Shown here in pieces: positions 15,897-38,720 of a stretch of 59,801 nt of DNA. The stretch is from positions 1-59,801 of IMG/VR virus record IMGVR_UViG_3300046654_000013; one strand, written 5' to 3'. Position numbers and translations under genes: made by a program. How positions within the stretch are numbered: the first letter of the stretch is position 1; each line of letters opens with the position of its first letter. The notes under the pieces were generated by a model, which saw only the letters and a program-made list of their open reading frames with translations, was not told where the DNA came from and did not search any database. The stretch comes from a virus.

Positions 15897-16549
15897 TGCC
15901 AGACGAAGAAACAACAGTAGATGATTTTTTCAACACGCCAGCAGTGGCAGAAACAACAACAGAGTTGCCAGCGATTGCAGGTGACATGGGAAACTTGATG
16001 CAGCAGGCTAATTTTCTTGCTCAATCAACAATTATTCCCGAAGCATATAGAAACAAACCTGCAAACTGTTTAATAGCCCTTGAATTTTCTAATCGTATTG
16101 GGTGTAATTTCTTAACAGCGGCACAATCGCTATTTATAATTCAAGGTAGACCATCATGGTCAAGCCAGTTTTTAATTAGTGCGTGGAACACTTGCGGACG
16201 ATATACACCAATTAAGTATAAAATGTTTGGTGAAGAAGAAGACGGTGACGCATTTGGTTGTATAGCGTATTCCAAAGAAATTGAAACAGGCGAACTCGTG
16301 GAAGGTCCAAAGGTTACAGTCGGTATGGCGAATGGTGAAGGGTGGACCAAAAAGAATGGTTCAAAATGGATCCATTTAAAGCCACTTATGATTAGATATC
16401 GTGCTGCAACATTCTTAATCCGCTTATATGCTCCAGAGCTAACATTCGGTTTGCACACTCGTGAAGAAGTTGAAGATATTACGAACGTTACCCCGCAGCG
16501 AGAATCACTGGCAGAGAACGCATGGAAAGAAAAAAATGCCAGCATTTAA
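15896..16549 (+). CDS. recT: RecT-family single-strand annealing protein
   Basis: Protein of 217 residues, RBS CGAGGAGGTAATCTA. LIALEFSNRIGCNFLTAAQSLFIIQGRPSWSSQFLI and MANGEGWTKKNG...KPLMIRYRAATFLIRLYAPE are RecT-type signatures. It binds ssDNA and anneals strands together with the 5' exonuclease two genes on. Its last 14 residues overlap the intruding HNH gene, and it is short for the family, so its original C-terminus may have been replaced. Confidence 0.8.
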   Translation: MPDEETTVDDFFNTPAVAETTTELPAIAGDMGNLMQQANFLAQSTIIPEAYRNKPANCLIALEFSNRIGCNFLTAAQSLFIIQGRPSWSSQFLISAWNTCGRYTPIKYKMFGEEEDGDAFGCIAYSKEIETGELVEGPKVTVGMANGEGWTKKNGSKWIHLKPLMIRYRAATFLIRLYAPELTFGLHTREEVEDITNVTPQRESLAENAWKEKNASI

Positions 16550-17219
16550 AGATTTAACTGGACTTAAATTTGGAAGATTAACCGTAATATGCAGATCTAA
16601 AAATGAAAAAGGAAAACAAACTAGATGGTTATGCAAGTGTGATTGCGGTAAAGAAAAAACAATAATAGGAGTTCATCTAACAAATGGGATGAGCAAAAGT
16701 TGTGGATGTATGCAAAAAGAAATTGTTTCAAAGATAAAAACAATAAATGGATTAAATTCAAAATCAAGATTATATAAAATATTTTGTGGTATGAAACAAC
16801 GATGTTATAATACTAACGAAAAAGCATATCATAATTATGGTGGTCGAGGAATAACTGTATGCGATGAATGGTTAAACAATACTTTATTATTTATTGCATG
16901 GGCAAAAAGTAATGGTTATAAAAATAATTTAACAATTGAAAGAATTAATAACGATAAAGGTTATTCACCAGACAATTGTAAATGGGCGACAAGGAAAGAA
17001 CAAAACAGAAATAGAAGAGACAATGTATTTATAACATTTAAAAAAGAAACTAAAAATCTTATAGACTGGGCTGAATATTTAAACATGAATCATCATACGA
17101 TAATGAATAGAATTAAAAGCGGATGGACCGTTAAGGATGCATTAACAGTAAAACCAGTTGTAGGAAGAAATCAAACAAATAAATATAGAAAGGAAGTAAG
17201 CCATGATTCTGACGAGTGA
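16536..17219 (+). CDS. HNH/AP2-type homing endonuclease-like protein
   Basis: Protein of 227 residues from ATG 16536. The N-terminal FKDLTGLKFGRLTVI...WLCKCDCGK is the zinc motif of phage HNH proteins. ERINNDKGYSPDNCKWAT near residue 145 is the typical HNH finger. The C-terminal NMNHHTIMNRIKSGWTVKDAL looks like a DNA-binding HTH. Its codon use is more AT-rich than its neighbours. It sits between recT and the exonuclease gene, overlapping both, as free-standing homing enzymes do. Confidence 0.8.
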   Translation: MPAFKDLTGLKFGRLTVICRSKNEKGKQTRWLCKCDCGKEKTIIGVHLTNGMSKSCGCMQKEIVSKIKTINGLNSKSRLYKIFCGMKQRCYNTNEKAYHNYGGRGITVCDEWLNNTLLFIAWAKSNGYKNNLTIERINNDKGYSPDNCKWATRKEQNRNRRDNVFITFKKETKNLIDWAEYLNMNHHTIMNRIKSGWTVKDALTVKPVVGRNQTNKYRKEVSHDSDE

Positions 17220-34622: not shown

Positions 34623-34648
34623 GTAATTAATCGAAAGTGTGATGGAAA

Positions 34649-34741
34649 CCATATGTGGCTGAGAGGATTATAGCAAGCCGTAAGGCTGGGTTGTAACTGG
34701 TAATGCTGGCATCTCCGTGGGTTCAAATCCCACCGTTTGGT
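34649..34741 (+). tRNA. tRNA-like gene, anticodon unresolved
   Basis: A perfect T-arm (GTGGG-TTCAAAT-CCCAC, 34717-34733) is followed by CGTTTGG, which pairs six of seven with CCATATG at 34649-34655. TGGCTGAGAGG then AGC gives a serine/leucine-type D-arm (GCT/AGC). The centre holds AGCC-GTAA-GGCT, a 4-base GNRA loop, instead of a normal 7-base anticodon loop, then 29 further bases. No CCA is encoded. Flanking bases extend the acceptor helix to 12 positions (GGAAA with TTTTC). It may be an unusual class II tRNA, a decayed tRNA or a tRNA mimic. I see no CTA anticodon. Confidence 0.5.
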
Positions 34742-34759
34742 TTTCGTAATACTTTACAT

Positions 34760-35183: not shown

Positions 35184-35360
35184 ATGATAAATTGTAATAA
35201 CGAAACTTGCAAGTATTGTAACGATGGCAAGTGTAAACAAACGGATATATCGGTAATTGATGATTCGTGCGTCAGTTATCGCAGACAGATATTTACGGAC
35301 TGGTCGAAGCTAGTCCAATTTAATAAAGCAGTGTATGGGGAAGGTGAACAAAATGGGTGA
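35184..35360 (+). CDS. Cysteine-rich small protein upstream of terS
   Basis: Protein of 58 residues, RBS GAGGAGGGCGCACG. INCNNETCKYCNDGKCKQ resembles small phage Cys proteins (four to five Cys in 15 residues). It overlaps the terS start. Confidence 0.6.
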   Translation: MINCNNETCKYCNDGKCKQTDISVIDDSCVSYRRQIFTDWSKLVQFNKAVYGEGEQNG

Positions 35361-35823
35361 ACAAGGGGGTCGACCATCGAAGTACAAACCGGAGTTTGAT
35401 AAGATGGCGTATGGATTTGGTCTGCTGGGAGCAACGGATGTACAGATGGCAGAATCGTTTGGAGTTTGTGAAGCAACAATGAACAATTGGAAAGCAGAAC
35501 ATCCTTCGTTTTTAGAGTCCTTAAGGCAATCTAAGTTAACCGCGGACGCTAAAGTAGCGGAGTCTTTATATAAACGAGCACAAGGATTTGAGTACGATGA
35601 AATTACGGATGATGAAAAAAATGGTAAAAAAACGGTTCGTAAATTTGTACCACCAGACGCAACGTCGATGATCTTCTGGCTTAAGAACCGTCAGCCCGCA
35701 GCGTGGCGCGACAAACAGGAAGTTGCTGTTGATAGCCATAATGTTAATGAGAATATTACGACAATTGCCGACATAATTATGAAGCCAGTACCAAACAGAG
35801 AAATACCCGGCGAAGATGAATAA
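35353..35823 (+). CDS. terS: Terminase small subunit
   Basis: Protein of 156 residues from ATG 35353 (GGAAGGTGAACAAA). GGRPSKYKPEF...YGFGLLGATDVQMAESFGVCEATMNNWKAEHP is the N-terminal HTH typical of TerS; FVPPDATSMIFWLKNRQP is the usual central block. It binds phage DNA and recruits TerL. Confidence 0.88.
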   Translation: MGEQGGRPSKYKPEFDKMAYGFGLLGATDVQMAESFGVCEATMNNWKAEHPSFLESLRQSKLTADAKVAESLYKRAQGFEYDEITDDEKNGKKTVRKFVPPDATSMIFWLKNRQPAAWRDKQEVAVDSHNVNENITTIADIIMKPVPNREIPGEDE

Positions 35824-35858
35824 ATTTAAATGTGCTTAACTGCGCGAAAGGAAGTGAT

Positions 35859-37178
35859 TTGCCGCCTATGGATGCTGTAAAATATGCGCCGTTCAACGAA
35901 AAGACTGTCCAGTATTTTAGAGATTGTATTGATCCTAAAAACTGGCTTCTTTGCGCTGAGGGCGGCAAGTAGCGCGCTGGTAAAAATATTATTAATATTC
36001 TTGCGTGGTGTACGGTACTTGAAACACACCCAGACTACCTGCACCTTGCAGGAGGTGTGTCAAACAGTACTGCAAAACTTAATATAATTCAGTCTAATGG
36101 ATTTGGCGTTGCTAACTACTTTGCAGGGCGTTGCCGCGAAGGTCAGTATCAAGATCGTGACGCTTTGTATATAAATACTAAAGTTGGCGAAAAAGTAATT
36201 ATTATTGGCGGTGGTGCAAACAAAGCATCAAATAAATTGATAAAAGGTTTTACTTTGGGGTCAATTTACGTCAGTGAAGCAAATGAATGTGATGAATCAT
36301 TTATTAAAGAATGTTTTGATAGAACTATATCAAGTAACTTGCGTAAGATATTTTTTGACATTAACCCTAAAAACCCGCAAGATTACTTTTATACTGAAAT
36401 TCTTGATGTTCATGAAGAAAATTCATTAACATATAAGAACTACGGTTATGTCTGGCAACATTTCACGATCGCAGACAACATGTCGATTACTGACGAGCGC
36501 ATGGCTGAGATATTAACCACATATAGGCGAAACTCTATCTGGTGGGAACGTGATATCGCGGGGCTTCGAACGGCGGCAGAAGGTATTGTTTATTCCAACT
36601 TTACAGATAAAAATAAATATGTTGATGGCGACGACCATTCGCCTAATTTTGATTTGTACTACAACAGACATTATGTAATTGACTACGGGACAATTCATCC
36701 ATTTGCTTGTCTGGAAATGATTGAGCAAACAATTGAGGGTGTAACAAATTATTATTGCAATGATGAGTATTATTATGACTCAACAAAAACTCACAAAGAG
36801 CTTGCCCCGTCAGATTACGCTGATGCAGTTGAAAAGTTTATTGATGGTAAACGTACCAAGGCTATTATTGTTGATCCAGCAGCGGCAGATTTTAGGGCAG
36901 AGCTAAGAAAACATAATCAGCGGTCAAAAGAAACTGCCCCGACAATTAATGCAGACAATGAGGTTGTTGCGGGAATACGACTTGTAACAAATCTTTTGCA
37001 AACAAAAAAACTTTGGATAAACAAAAAGTGTGTTAATTTGATTAAAGAGCTTTCTGCATACATCTGGGATGCTAAAGCAGCAGAGCATGGCAAAGAACAA
37101 GTTGTTAAGGTAAACGATGATGCTTGTGACTGCTTGCGCTACTACTGTAAAACCATTGTAAAATCATATAAAATATAA
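35859..37178 (+). CDS. terL: Terminase large subunit with in-frame TAG in the P-loop
   Basis: TTG 35859 (GAAAGGAAGTGAT upstream) or ATG 35868 begins a frame that reads FRDCIDPKNWLLCAEGGK, then TAG at 35970-35972, then RAGKNIINILAWC. EGG-K-x-RAGKN is the Walker A loop, so the amber is inside the ATPase motif. Past it the frame is intact for 402 codons: SIYVSEANEC (Walker B region), then nuclease motifs YVIDYG, IIVDPAA and NDDACDCLRY. The next in-frame start (GTG 36057) would lack the P-loop, so the frame needs readthrough, suppression or correction to work. GxxxxGK is satisfied with or without an extra residue at the TAG. Confidence 0.85.
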
Positions 37179-37196: not shown

Positions 37197-38720
37197 ATGA
37201 ATAAAAAACAAAAACGCAGTTCTGCAACCGCGACTGAACCGGTGCAGCGTTCACCGCGCAAGTCAACAAGAGACAGCTTCACAAACTCGCTGGGAAGGCT
37301 AGGAGTAGATCAGCCGGGGATGATGGGTGGGACGGATTATAAATTAACCAGACTTACCAGAAATTATAATTTGTTAAACACTCTCTATCGTAATTCATGG
37401 ATTTGCAAGAAAATCATTGAAACGATCCCTGGTGATATGGTCAAAAATTGGTTTTCAAACACAGCCGATCTTGAACCGGAGATAACAGATCGATACAACA
37501 AGCTTGAACAACGCACTAAGACGAAGGATAAAATCAACGAAGGCTTATGCTGGGGTGATTTGTACGGCGGCGCTGCGGGTATTATGATGATCGACGGTCA
37601 AGAAGATCAGCTTGATATACCGCTTGATATTAACGAGGTTATGCCAAACAGTTACTGCGGTTTGCTCATTGTTGATCGCTGGTCTGGTATTTATCCCGGC
37701 ACTGAATTAATCACTGACATGAAAGACCCAGAGTTCGGGTTGCCCGAATGGTACGAAGTCAGAGACGTAACAAAAGATAACGCAACAGTTCGCGTGCATC
37801 ATTCGCGAGTGTTGCGTTTTTGTGGTCGGCGGCTGCCGTACTGGGAGAACATGGCTGAAATCGGATGGGGGGCGAGTCAGCTTGAGCATGTGTTTGATGA
37901 GCTGGCAAAGCGCGACAATACGTCGTGGAATATAGCAAGCTTGGTATTTCAAGCAAATTTACTCGTCAACAAGGTAACAGACTTTGACCAAATGATGGCT
38001 GCAACTGACCCAGATGTACAGAGAGACTTCTACGCGGTTAAGTCAGCACAGAATCAGATGCGTAACAATAATGGCATGATGATTATAGGCGACAAGGACG
38101 AAGTTTCGTCTATGAACTACACGTTTGCAGGGCTGAATGATATTTACGAATCGCAGATGTTAGATATCGCTGGCGCCGCAGAAATTCCAGTAACAAAACT
38201 GTTCGGTCGTGCTCCCGCTGGCATGAATGCGACTGGGGAAGCCGACGCGCAAAATTACTATGACATGATAGGGCAACGACAGGAATCGCAGTTAAAACCG
38301 ATTTTGGAGAAGCTGCTGCCGATTATGTTTATGAGCGAGTTTGGCAAGGTTCCGCACGATTTGGGAATACGATTTAATGCGGTACAGACTCCGACAGAAG
38401 ATAAAATGGCTGAAATCATATCGAAGAAAACAACGTGCATCTATGAAGGATATAATACTGGGGTACTTACGCATCGCATGGCACTCAAGGAACTGCAAGA
38501 ATTGTCGTATACATCGAATATGTTTAGCAGTGTGACCGATGAAGCAATCGACGCTGCCGACAACGATTTAAGCCCAGATATGGGCGAAGCAATGCCACAA
38601 TTTGGCGGCGGACTTGGTGGAGCAGGAACGACGAACAGAAAGGTGATGCCGGATGACATGGAAACCACAGCGCCGGATAGAACTGGACTACCAGAGACAA
38701 CTGCGCCAACTGTTCGCTAA
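37197..38720 (+). CDS. Portal protein (DUF1073-like)
   Basis: Protein of 507 residues, RBS AAGGAGAATCC. NSWICKKIIETIPGDMVKNW near residue 65 and KLFGRAPAGMNATGEADAQNYYDMI near residue 340 are hallmarks of the DUF1073 portal family. It forms the dodecameric DNA gate in the capsid vertex. Confidence 0.9.
   Translation: MNKKQKRSSATATEPVQRSPRKSTRDSFTNSLGRLGVDQPGMMGGTDYKLTRLTRNYNLLNTLYRNSWICKKIIETIPGDMVKNWFSNTADLEPEITDRYNKLEQRTKTKDKINEGLCWGDLYGGAAGIMMIDGQEDQLDIPLDINEVMPNSYCGLLIVDRWSGIYPGTELITDMKDPEFGLPEWYEVRDVTKDNATVRVHHSRVLRFCGRRLPYWENMAEIGWGASQLEHVFDELAKRDNTSWNIASLVFQANLLVNKVTDFDQMMAATDPDVQRDFYAVKSAQNQMRNNNGMMIIGDKDEVSSMNYTFAGLNDIYESQMLDIAGAAEIPVTKLFGRAPAGMNATGEADAQNYYDMIGQRQESQLKPILEKLLPIMFMSEFGKVPHDLGIRFNAVQTPTEDKMAEIISKKTTCIYEGYNTGVLTHRMALKELQELSYTSNMFSSVTDEAIDAADNDLSPDMGEAMPQFGGGLGGAGTTNRKVMPDDMETTAPDRTGLPETTAPTVR

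Follow-up and report, generated by a model that had tools for sequence, protein, structure and literature searches.

To our knowledge, programmed translational bypassing in bacteria and phages is known almost wholly from one proven case, gene 60 of phage T4. That bypass is coupled to the HNH gene mobA (PMC3014915, PMC5009743, PMC2988022): an insertion near the 5' end of the coding sequence of an essential gene places a stop right after a glycine take-off codon, translation resumes at a matched glycine landing codon (PMC3014915, PMC11194080), and the insert is thought to protect against the free-standing homing endonuclease encoded upstream. Bypassing has also been mentioned as likely or putative in the terminase large subunit gene, terL, of Streptomyces phage phiHau3, where it is proposed to exploit a UUA codon, and 81 bypassed inserts have been described in the mitochondrial genes of one Magnusiomyces capitatus genome (PMC5009743). 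Synthetic stop-hops, in which a stop lies between matched codons and the ribosome resumes beyond it, have been made in E. coli, and a review of the field knows of no natural in-frame stop hop (PMC5009743). Here, we analysed an uncultivated virus contig of 59,801 bases (IMG/VR record IMGVR_UViG_3300046654_000013, referred to in its whole length as the window), whose terL carries an amber codon in the Walker A loop (P-loop) of the packaging ATPase. Comparison with related phages suggests that this TAG is one version of a very small, mostly stop-bearing insertion that recurs at this site.

This single stop, TAG 35970-35972, is the only interruption of the terL frame between 35859 and 37178. Around it the frame reads LPPMDAVKYAPFNEKTVQYFRDCIDPKNWLLCAEGGK*RAGKNIINILAW..., placing the stop between the K and the R of AEGGK*RAGKN, and it then stays open up to the TAA at 37176-37178. 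Translation begins at either TTG 35859, preceded by GGAAG, or ATG 35868. The stop in the P-loop is real, and the initial annotation of this sequence, which had placed it within the Walker A loop of a frame that continues beyond it, holds on both points. The 401 codons 3' of the TAG are intact and keep conserved motifs, with a Walker B-like YVSEANE among them, and they match the PHROG terminase large subunit and Pfam Terminase_3 and Terminase_6N. ATPase and nuclease domains are present and the small subunit gene, terS, and the portal gene adjoin; what the window lacks is the uninterrupted Walker A loop expected of a TerL reading frame.

Relatives were gathered by portal and TerL searches, and all counts below refer to the loci retrieved. 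In tblastn searches with an X at the TAG, every close relative had a gap opposite the X (EGGK-RGGKN, EGGK-RAGKN). The P-loop was identical in length across 86 non-redundant uninserted relatives (at least 44% identity), and 5OE8, the terminase of known structure that is closest in sequence, has DGSIRAGKT, without an extra residue at the TAG position. Since the relatives have no residue there, these alignments indicate that 3 nucleotides (nt), the size of one codon, were inserted at the TAG and that no existing codon was substituted. A 3-base insertion was one option listed in the initial annotation, which had proposed aligning homologous P-loops as a check; its remark that the GxxxxGK spacing fits either one residue or none at the TAG is right as arithmetic, but the relatives have none.

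A small insertion at the same P-loop was found in 15 other contigs, 14 of them with an in-frame stop (TAA, TAG or TGA), so the window TAG is not a chance event. The insertions are 4, 5, 7 and 11 nt long in the relatives and 3 nt in the window, and all three frames are represented. On a tree built from the ATPase domain 3' of the P-loop, the insertion trait changes eight times, at least six of the changes being forced by well-supported branches, and the inserts were gained or lost several times. The tree omits alleles that later searches added, and also L028, most likely because it is identical to L026 in the stretch used and identical rows were entered once. Two scan patterns selected the insertion itself and one selected intact loops, so the frequencies do not reflect those in phage populations. 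A pattern scan gave no near copy of the P-loop DNA of the window, no second example was found among 301 genomes of the class of Megasphaera cerevisiae, the isolate among the carriers, and no description of this Firmicutes insertion family was found in the literature searched, mostly without subscription papers. Pattern matches in an unrelated gene (L231) or in sequences that do not encode TerL (L211, L212, L215, L216, L224) were set aside. That the TAG is an assembly error or the dead allele of a decaying phage might be suspected of one uncultivated contig whose TerL sits on a long branch (1.01), but the same site is struck in the 15 other contigs, the isolate included, and the codons after the TAG are intact with their motifs. 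We therefore regard this explanation as improbable, and with it the private nonsense allele or sequencing error that the initial annotation had considered.

After the stop, nonsynonymous divergence (dN) is 0.007 against a synonymous divergence (dS) of 0.354 between L218 and L221, and 0.002 against 0.146 between L026 and L028, pointing to strong purifying selection on the codons that follow the inserts; the 28 codons before the stop are likewise conserved at the protein level. Because dN is far below dS after the stop and the protein is conserved before it, both halves of terL are probably expressed and useful. They might be made as a two-piece TerL by re-initiation at the stop (ATGA, GTGA or TTGA overlaps), similar to the split ribonucleotide reductase of phage Aeh1, in which mobE divides nrdA (PMC2988022). 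An NTG codon does overlap the stop in the TGA alleles L010, L028, L029 and L012, but in the TAA and TAG alleles, that of the window included, the stop is not overlapped by any start codon, and the next listed in-frame start of the window, GTG 36057, comes only after the lysine of the P-loop, making a two-piece protein very improbable.

Bypass best explains the allele set, because the gaps are of sizes that cover every frame whereas the loop itself has a constant length. With lengths of 3, 4, 5, 7 and 11 nt, only omission of the insert would give the canonical loop in all alleles, and no single frameshift or suppressor tRNA would serve them all. Programmed −1 frameshifting at the stop would suit the 5-nt and 11-nt gaps, which are all 2 mod 3, and would leave two extra P-loop residues in the 5-nt alleles (GG-LS-K, GGK-VT-R). 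It is highly improbable, as it does not fit the 7-nt insertions of L236 and L254, the 4-nt insertion of L240 or the 3-nt window allele, would enlarge a loop of fixed length, and would involve poor P-site re-pairing one base back at GGT.

Readthrough of the window UAG, one of the options in the initial annotation, would add one residue (EGGK-x-RAGKN), and the ATPase could still work, in limited dose. The window allele alone is in frame, and the GxxxxGK spacing fits when counted from the second glycine. Against this, loop length is constant in all uninserted relatives with this loop, TGA, TAA and TAG alleles in other frames cannot yield TerL in such a way, and no amber suppressor tRNA (CTA anticodon) was found in the window; nor were any tRNAs, and hence any CTA anticodon, found in the scanned loci of the insertion-bearing relatives. 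Readthrough is thus conceivable for the window as the sole 3-nt insertion and does not extend to the other alleles, and even for the window we consider it unlikely. The host amber suppression also raised in the initial annotation is an unlikely general answer, with TAA, TGA and TAG all at this site and mostly out of frame; taken as a whole, the interpretation in that annotation is partly supported. The window allele could be translated by an in-frame hop that adds no residue or by readthrough that adds one. Recoding of TAG was ruled out, as TAG terminates 7 of the 64 window open reading frames (ORFs) of at least 100 aa and the relatives use all three stops. The sole tRNA-like element of the window (34648-34742), 1.2 kb upstream of terL, is Ser-like in its T arm and has an odd anticodon loop of 8 nt (ARAGORN 'aagg') without CTA; it is possibly a decayed or odd phage tRNA. 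An Rfam scan of the window gave nothing significant, arguing against any known intron type at the TAG site.

As a combined explanation of the terL alleles, we propose a mobile, stop-bearing insertion that is bypassed in translation, to which we assign a probability of roughly 0.6. The mobile segment would begin with a free-standing homing-endonuclease gene that separates terS from terL, and would further include the ~37 N-terminal codons of terL together with the insertion. In phages without an insertion, the endonuclease would cut the conserved site at the P-loop, a site that the insertion would spoil in its own allele. The ribosome would halt at the stop, bypass the inserted bases and resume at the next P-loop codon, yielding the canonical EGGKR(A/G)(G/S)KN. 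The window would represent a short, 3-nt form whose adjoining endonuclease was lost or never present.

Consistent with this proposal, an endonuclease gene or remnant lies directly 5' of terL in 10 of the 16 insertion alleles, compared with 1 of the 84 uninserted relatives that have an ORF directly upstream of terL (on the 96 rows of the tree, Fisher p = 3e-8), although the pattern-based sampling may affect this association. The endonucleases of L009, L026, L028, L029, L218, L219 and L221 are intact or nearly so. Upstream ORFs of the other uninserted relatives mostly appear terS-like or helix-turn-helix, as judged from 25 of their 32 families. In independent pairs, the endonuclease either accompanies the insertion or is the same in both members, and no pair shows the opposite. 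Two relatives, L026 and L028, are 98.7% identical over a 4.3-kb match and near-identical from ~130 nt past the P-loop, while L026 combines a GIY-YIG gene with TAGGT and L028 an AP2-HNH gene with TGACT, and their terL 5' ends differ too. The pattern looks as if one mobile segment had been exchanged; an endonuclease and altered site inherited together and exchanged on a shared backbone were found for this pair only, and not for the window. In L012, part of the terL 5' end is present a second time, in front of the AP2-HNH remnant.

The codons flanking the gaps suggest how a ribosome might land. The stop directly follows the take-off codon in the window (AAG TAG) and in 14 relatives. In five distinct gaps (TAGGT, TAAGGGT, TAACGGA, TAACCACCGGT and CGGG), the last three bases form a glycine codon and the take-off codon is also glycine, a match expected by chance at ~1e-6 if the gaps are independent. 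These gaps occur in L026, L161, L218, L219, L221, L222, L236, L240 and L254; the TAAGC, TGAGC, TGACK and window TAG alleles have no matched landing codon. In these unmatched alleles, the leader immediately 5' of the start codon is instead complementary to the codons that precede the stop. In the window, a leader segment at the terL start is complementary to the P-loop just before and into the TAG (−19.9 kcal/mol, RNAduplex), and none of 97 other leaders pairs as well. The test was also repeated with a larger set. The own leader of the seven unmatched alleles ranked at 0 to 0.26 against other leaders (p = 7e-5 against uninserted loci), a value that is optimistic because the complementarity was spotted by eye before the test and the classes were split after viewing the alleles. 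One variable base pair of the pairing is G-C in L009, A-T in L012 and T-A in L223. The matched glycine class gave no leader pairing signal. The pairing may have a part in bypassing, or it may restrict initiation. The window belongs with the TGACK class, because its leader, GGAAGTGATTTGCCGCCTATGG, is similar to the leaders of L028, L029 and L132; its 3-nt TAG might, as a guess, derive from a 5-nt TAGCG by loss of one CG in a CGCGCGC run.

Several observations weigh against this proposal. Six alleles, those of the window, L132, L223, L161, L254 and L240, gave no endonuclease next to terL, and homing-endonuclease queries on the window found none between terS and terL and nothing near terL. One uninserted relative, L008, does have an upstream endonuclease, of the GIY-YIG kind; besides it, no further endonuclease gene was found within 300 nt upstream of terL in uninserted relatives. 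The independent-pair test, while one-directional, has too few pairs for significance. The landing codon is unmatched in the window (AAG to UAG) and in the unmatched relatives (AAR to ACG or ACT, GGT to AGC). No strong local RNA fold specific to the insertion was found, inserted and uninserted loci being alike.

Compared with gene 60, the terL family shares an insert placed early in the reading frame of an essential gene, a stop directly behind a glycine take-off codon, a free-standing endonuclease upstream, a presumed protective role of the insert against that endonuclease and, in one class only, a matched glycine landing. The T4 gap, however, is 50 nt long and has nascent-peptide and stem-loop signals, whereas the terL gaps span 3-11 nt and come as many alleles with three kinds of endonuclease; the window differs further from T4 in having neither a matched landing codon nor an adjoining endonuclease. 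Tentatively, and with odds a little short of even, three unrelated kinds of free-standing endonuclease may, time and again, have created or transported 'micro-bypass' cassettes with a stop at the P-loop of Firmicutes phage terminases, with two solutions, a matched glycine landing or a pairing of leader and take-off site, and with the window as a natural in-frame stop-hop. The window would be such a hop if the residue is omitted, unlike the E. coli stop-hops, which are designed constructs. The Magnusiomyces inserts are similarly short coding inserts that are skipped, some without perfectly matched codons, but they are mitochondrial and all from one genome, whereas here a single position of terL is affected in many different phages.

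The phiHau3 terL (L227) is likewise interrupted in the Walker A region, reading KGWG (GGC) [UUACUCCGGU] AAG, and resembles the alleles described here in this site, in its glycine take-off and landing codons and in having only a short gap; 1.4 kb upstream there is an HNH gene. It differs in that the A site holds UUA, a codon seldom used in Streptomyces, with no stop, and in that the terminase is distant. The same gene (L227 2329-3995) holds a second out-of-frame gap before the Walker B region, reading UCU [UUAACGGUCC] ACG, again with UUA beside the take-off codon and with matched serine codons.

If our proposal is true, the rules of bypassing could be approached by comparison, since these natural micro-gaps at one codon position come in many lengths, with each of the three stops, with landing sites that match or do not, and alongside uninserted sisters. 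It would also point to a way in which selfish genes persist in motor genes that are essential, by joining a lethal-looking insert with translational repair. The terL of such phages will be split or missed by gene callers.

Table 1 Features of the window and insertion alleles of relatives. Alleles are written as codons before, [insertion], codon after. MAG, metagenome-assembled genome.
Feature	Locus	Positions	Strand	Allele or segment	Remarks
terS, directly 5' of terL	window	35335-35823	+		PHROG terminase small subunit
Leader segment	window	35857-35867	+	ATTTGCCGCCT	complementary to 35960-35970, 11 bp with 2 G-U
terL ORF1, 37 N-terminal codons through EGGK	window	35859-35969	+		translation; N-terminus conserved among relatives
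P-loop partner of leader	window	35960-35970	+	GGGCGGCAAGT	just before and into TAG
In-frame 3-nt insertion of Walker A loop	window	35970-35972	+	TAG	gapped in all close relatives
terL ORF2, RAGKN to TAA, remaining ATPase domain and nuclease domain	window	35973-37178	+		PHROG, Pfam
Portal gene	window	37197-38720	+		PHROG portal; query for finding close relatives
Insertion allele	L132 (=L010)			GGC AAG [TGACG] CGC	Megasphaera cerevisiae DSM 20462, isolate genome
Insertion allele	L028			GGC AAA [TGACT] CGT	AP2-HNH gene between terS and terL
Insertion allele	L029			GGC AAG [TGACG] CGG	AP2-HNH gene between terS and terL
Insertion allele	L009			GGT [TAAGC] AAA	AP2-HNH gene between terS and terL
Insertion allele	L223			GGT [TAAGC] AAA	
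Insertion allele	L012			GGT [TGAGC] AAA	endonuclease remnant upstream of terL
Insertion allele	L026			GGT [TAGGT] AAA	GIY-YIG gene between terS and terL
Insertion allele	L218, L219, L221			GGT [TAGGT] AAA	NUMOD4-HNH gene between terS and terL
Insertion allele	L222			GGT [TAGGT] AAA	endonuclease remnant upstream of terL
Insertion allele	L254			GGT [TAAGGGT] AAA	
Insertion allele	L236			GGT [TAACGGA] AAA	endonuclease remnant upstream of terL
Insertion allele	L161			GGC [TAACCACCGGT] AAG	Lachnospiraceae MAG
Insertion allele	L240			GGA [CGGG] AAA	sense, without stop; could be a one-base assembly error

Elsewhere in the window, far from terL, 16560-16724 matches the N-terminal part of the L009 AP2-HNH protein (38% identity, E 1e-6); the match lies in or near an ORF at 16461-17219 that has no Pfam HNH call. 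Other relatives carry selfish elements at further sites in terL. In L114 (1864-3894), the gene is split after residue ~123 by ~780 nt encoding a NUMOD4-HNH protein (2353-2874), and an intein-like insertion lies near the TerL C-terminus, after NDHC/DHC, in the M. cerevisiae prophage (L010 2717-4982) and in ON840061.1 (L003). Also, the Walker A motif is deviant in L008 (3774-3800), L019-L025, L026 and L028, where the glycine before the Walker lysine is replaced, giving RASKN or RAAKN.
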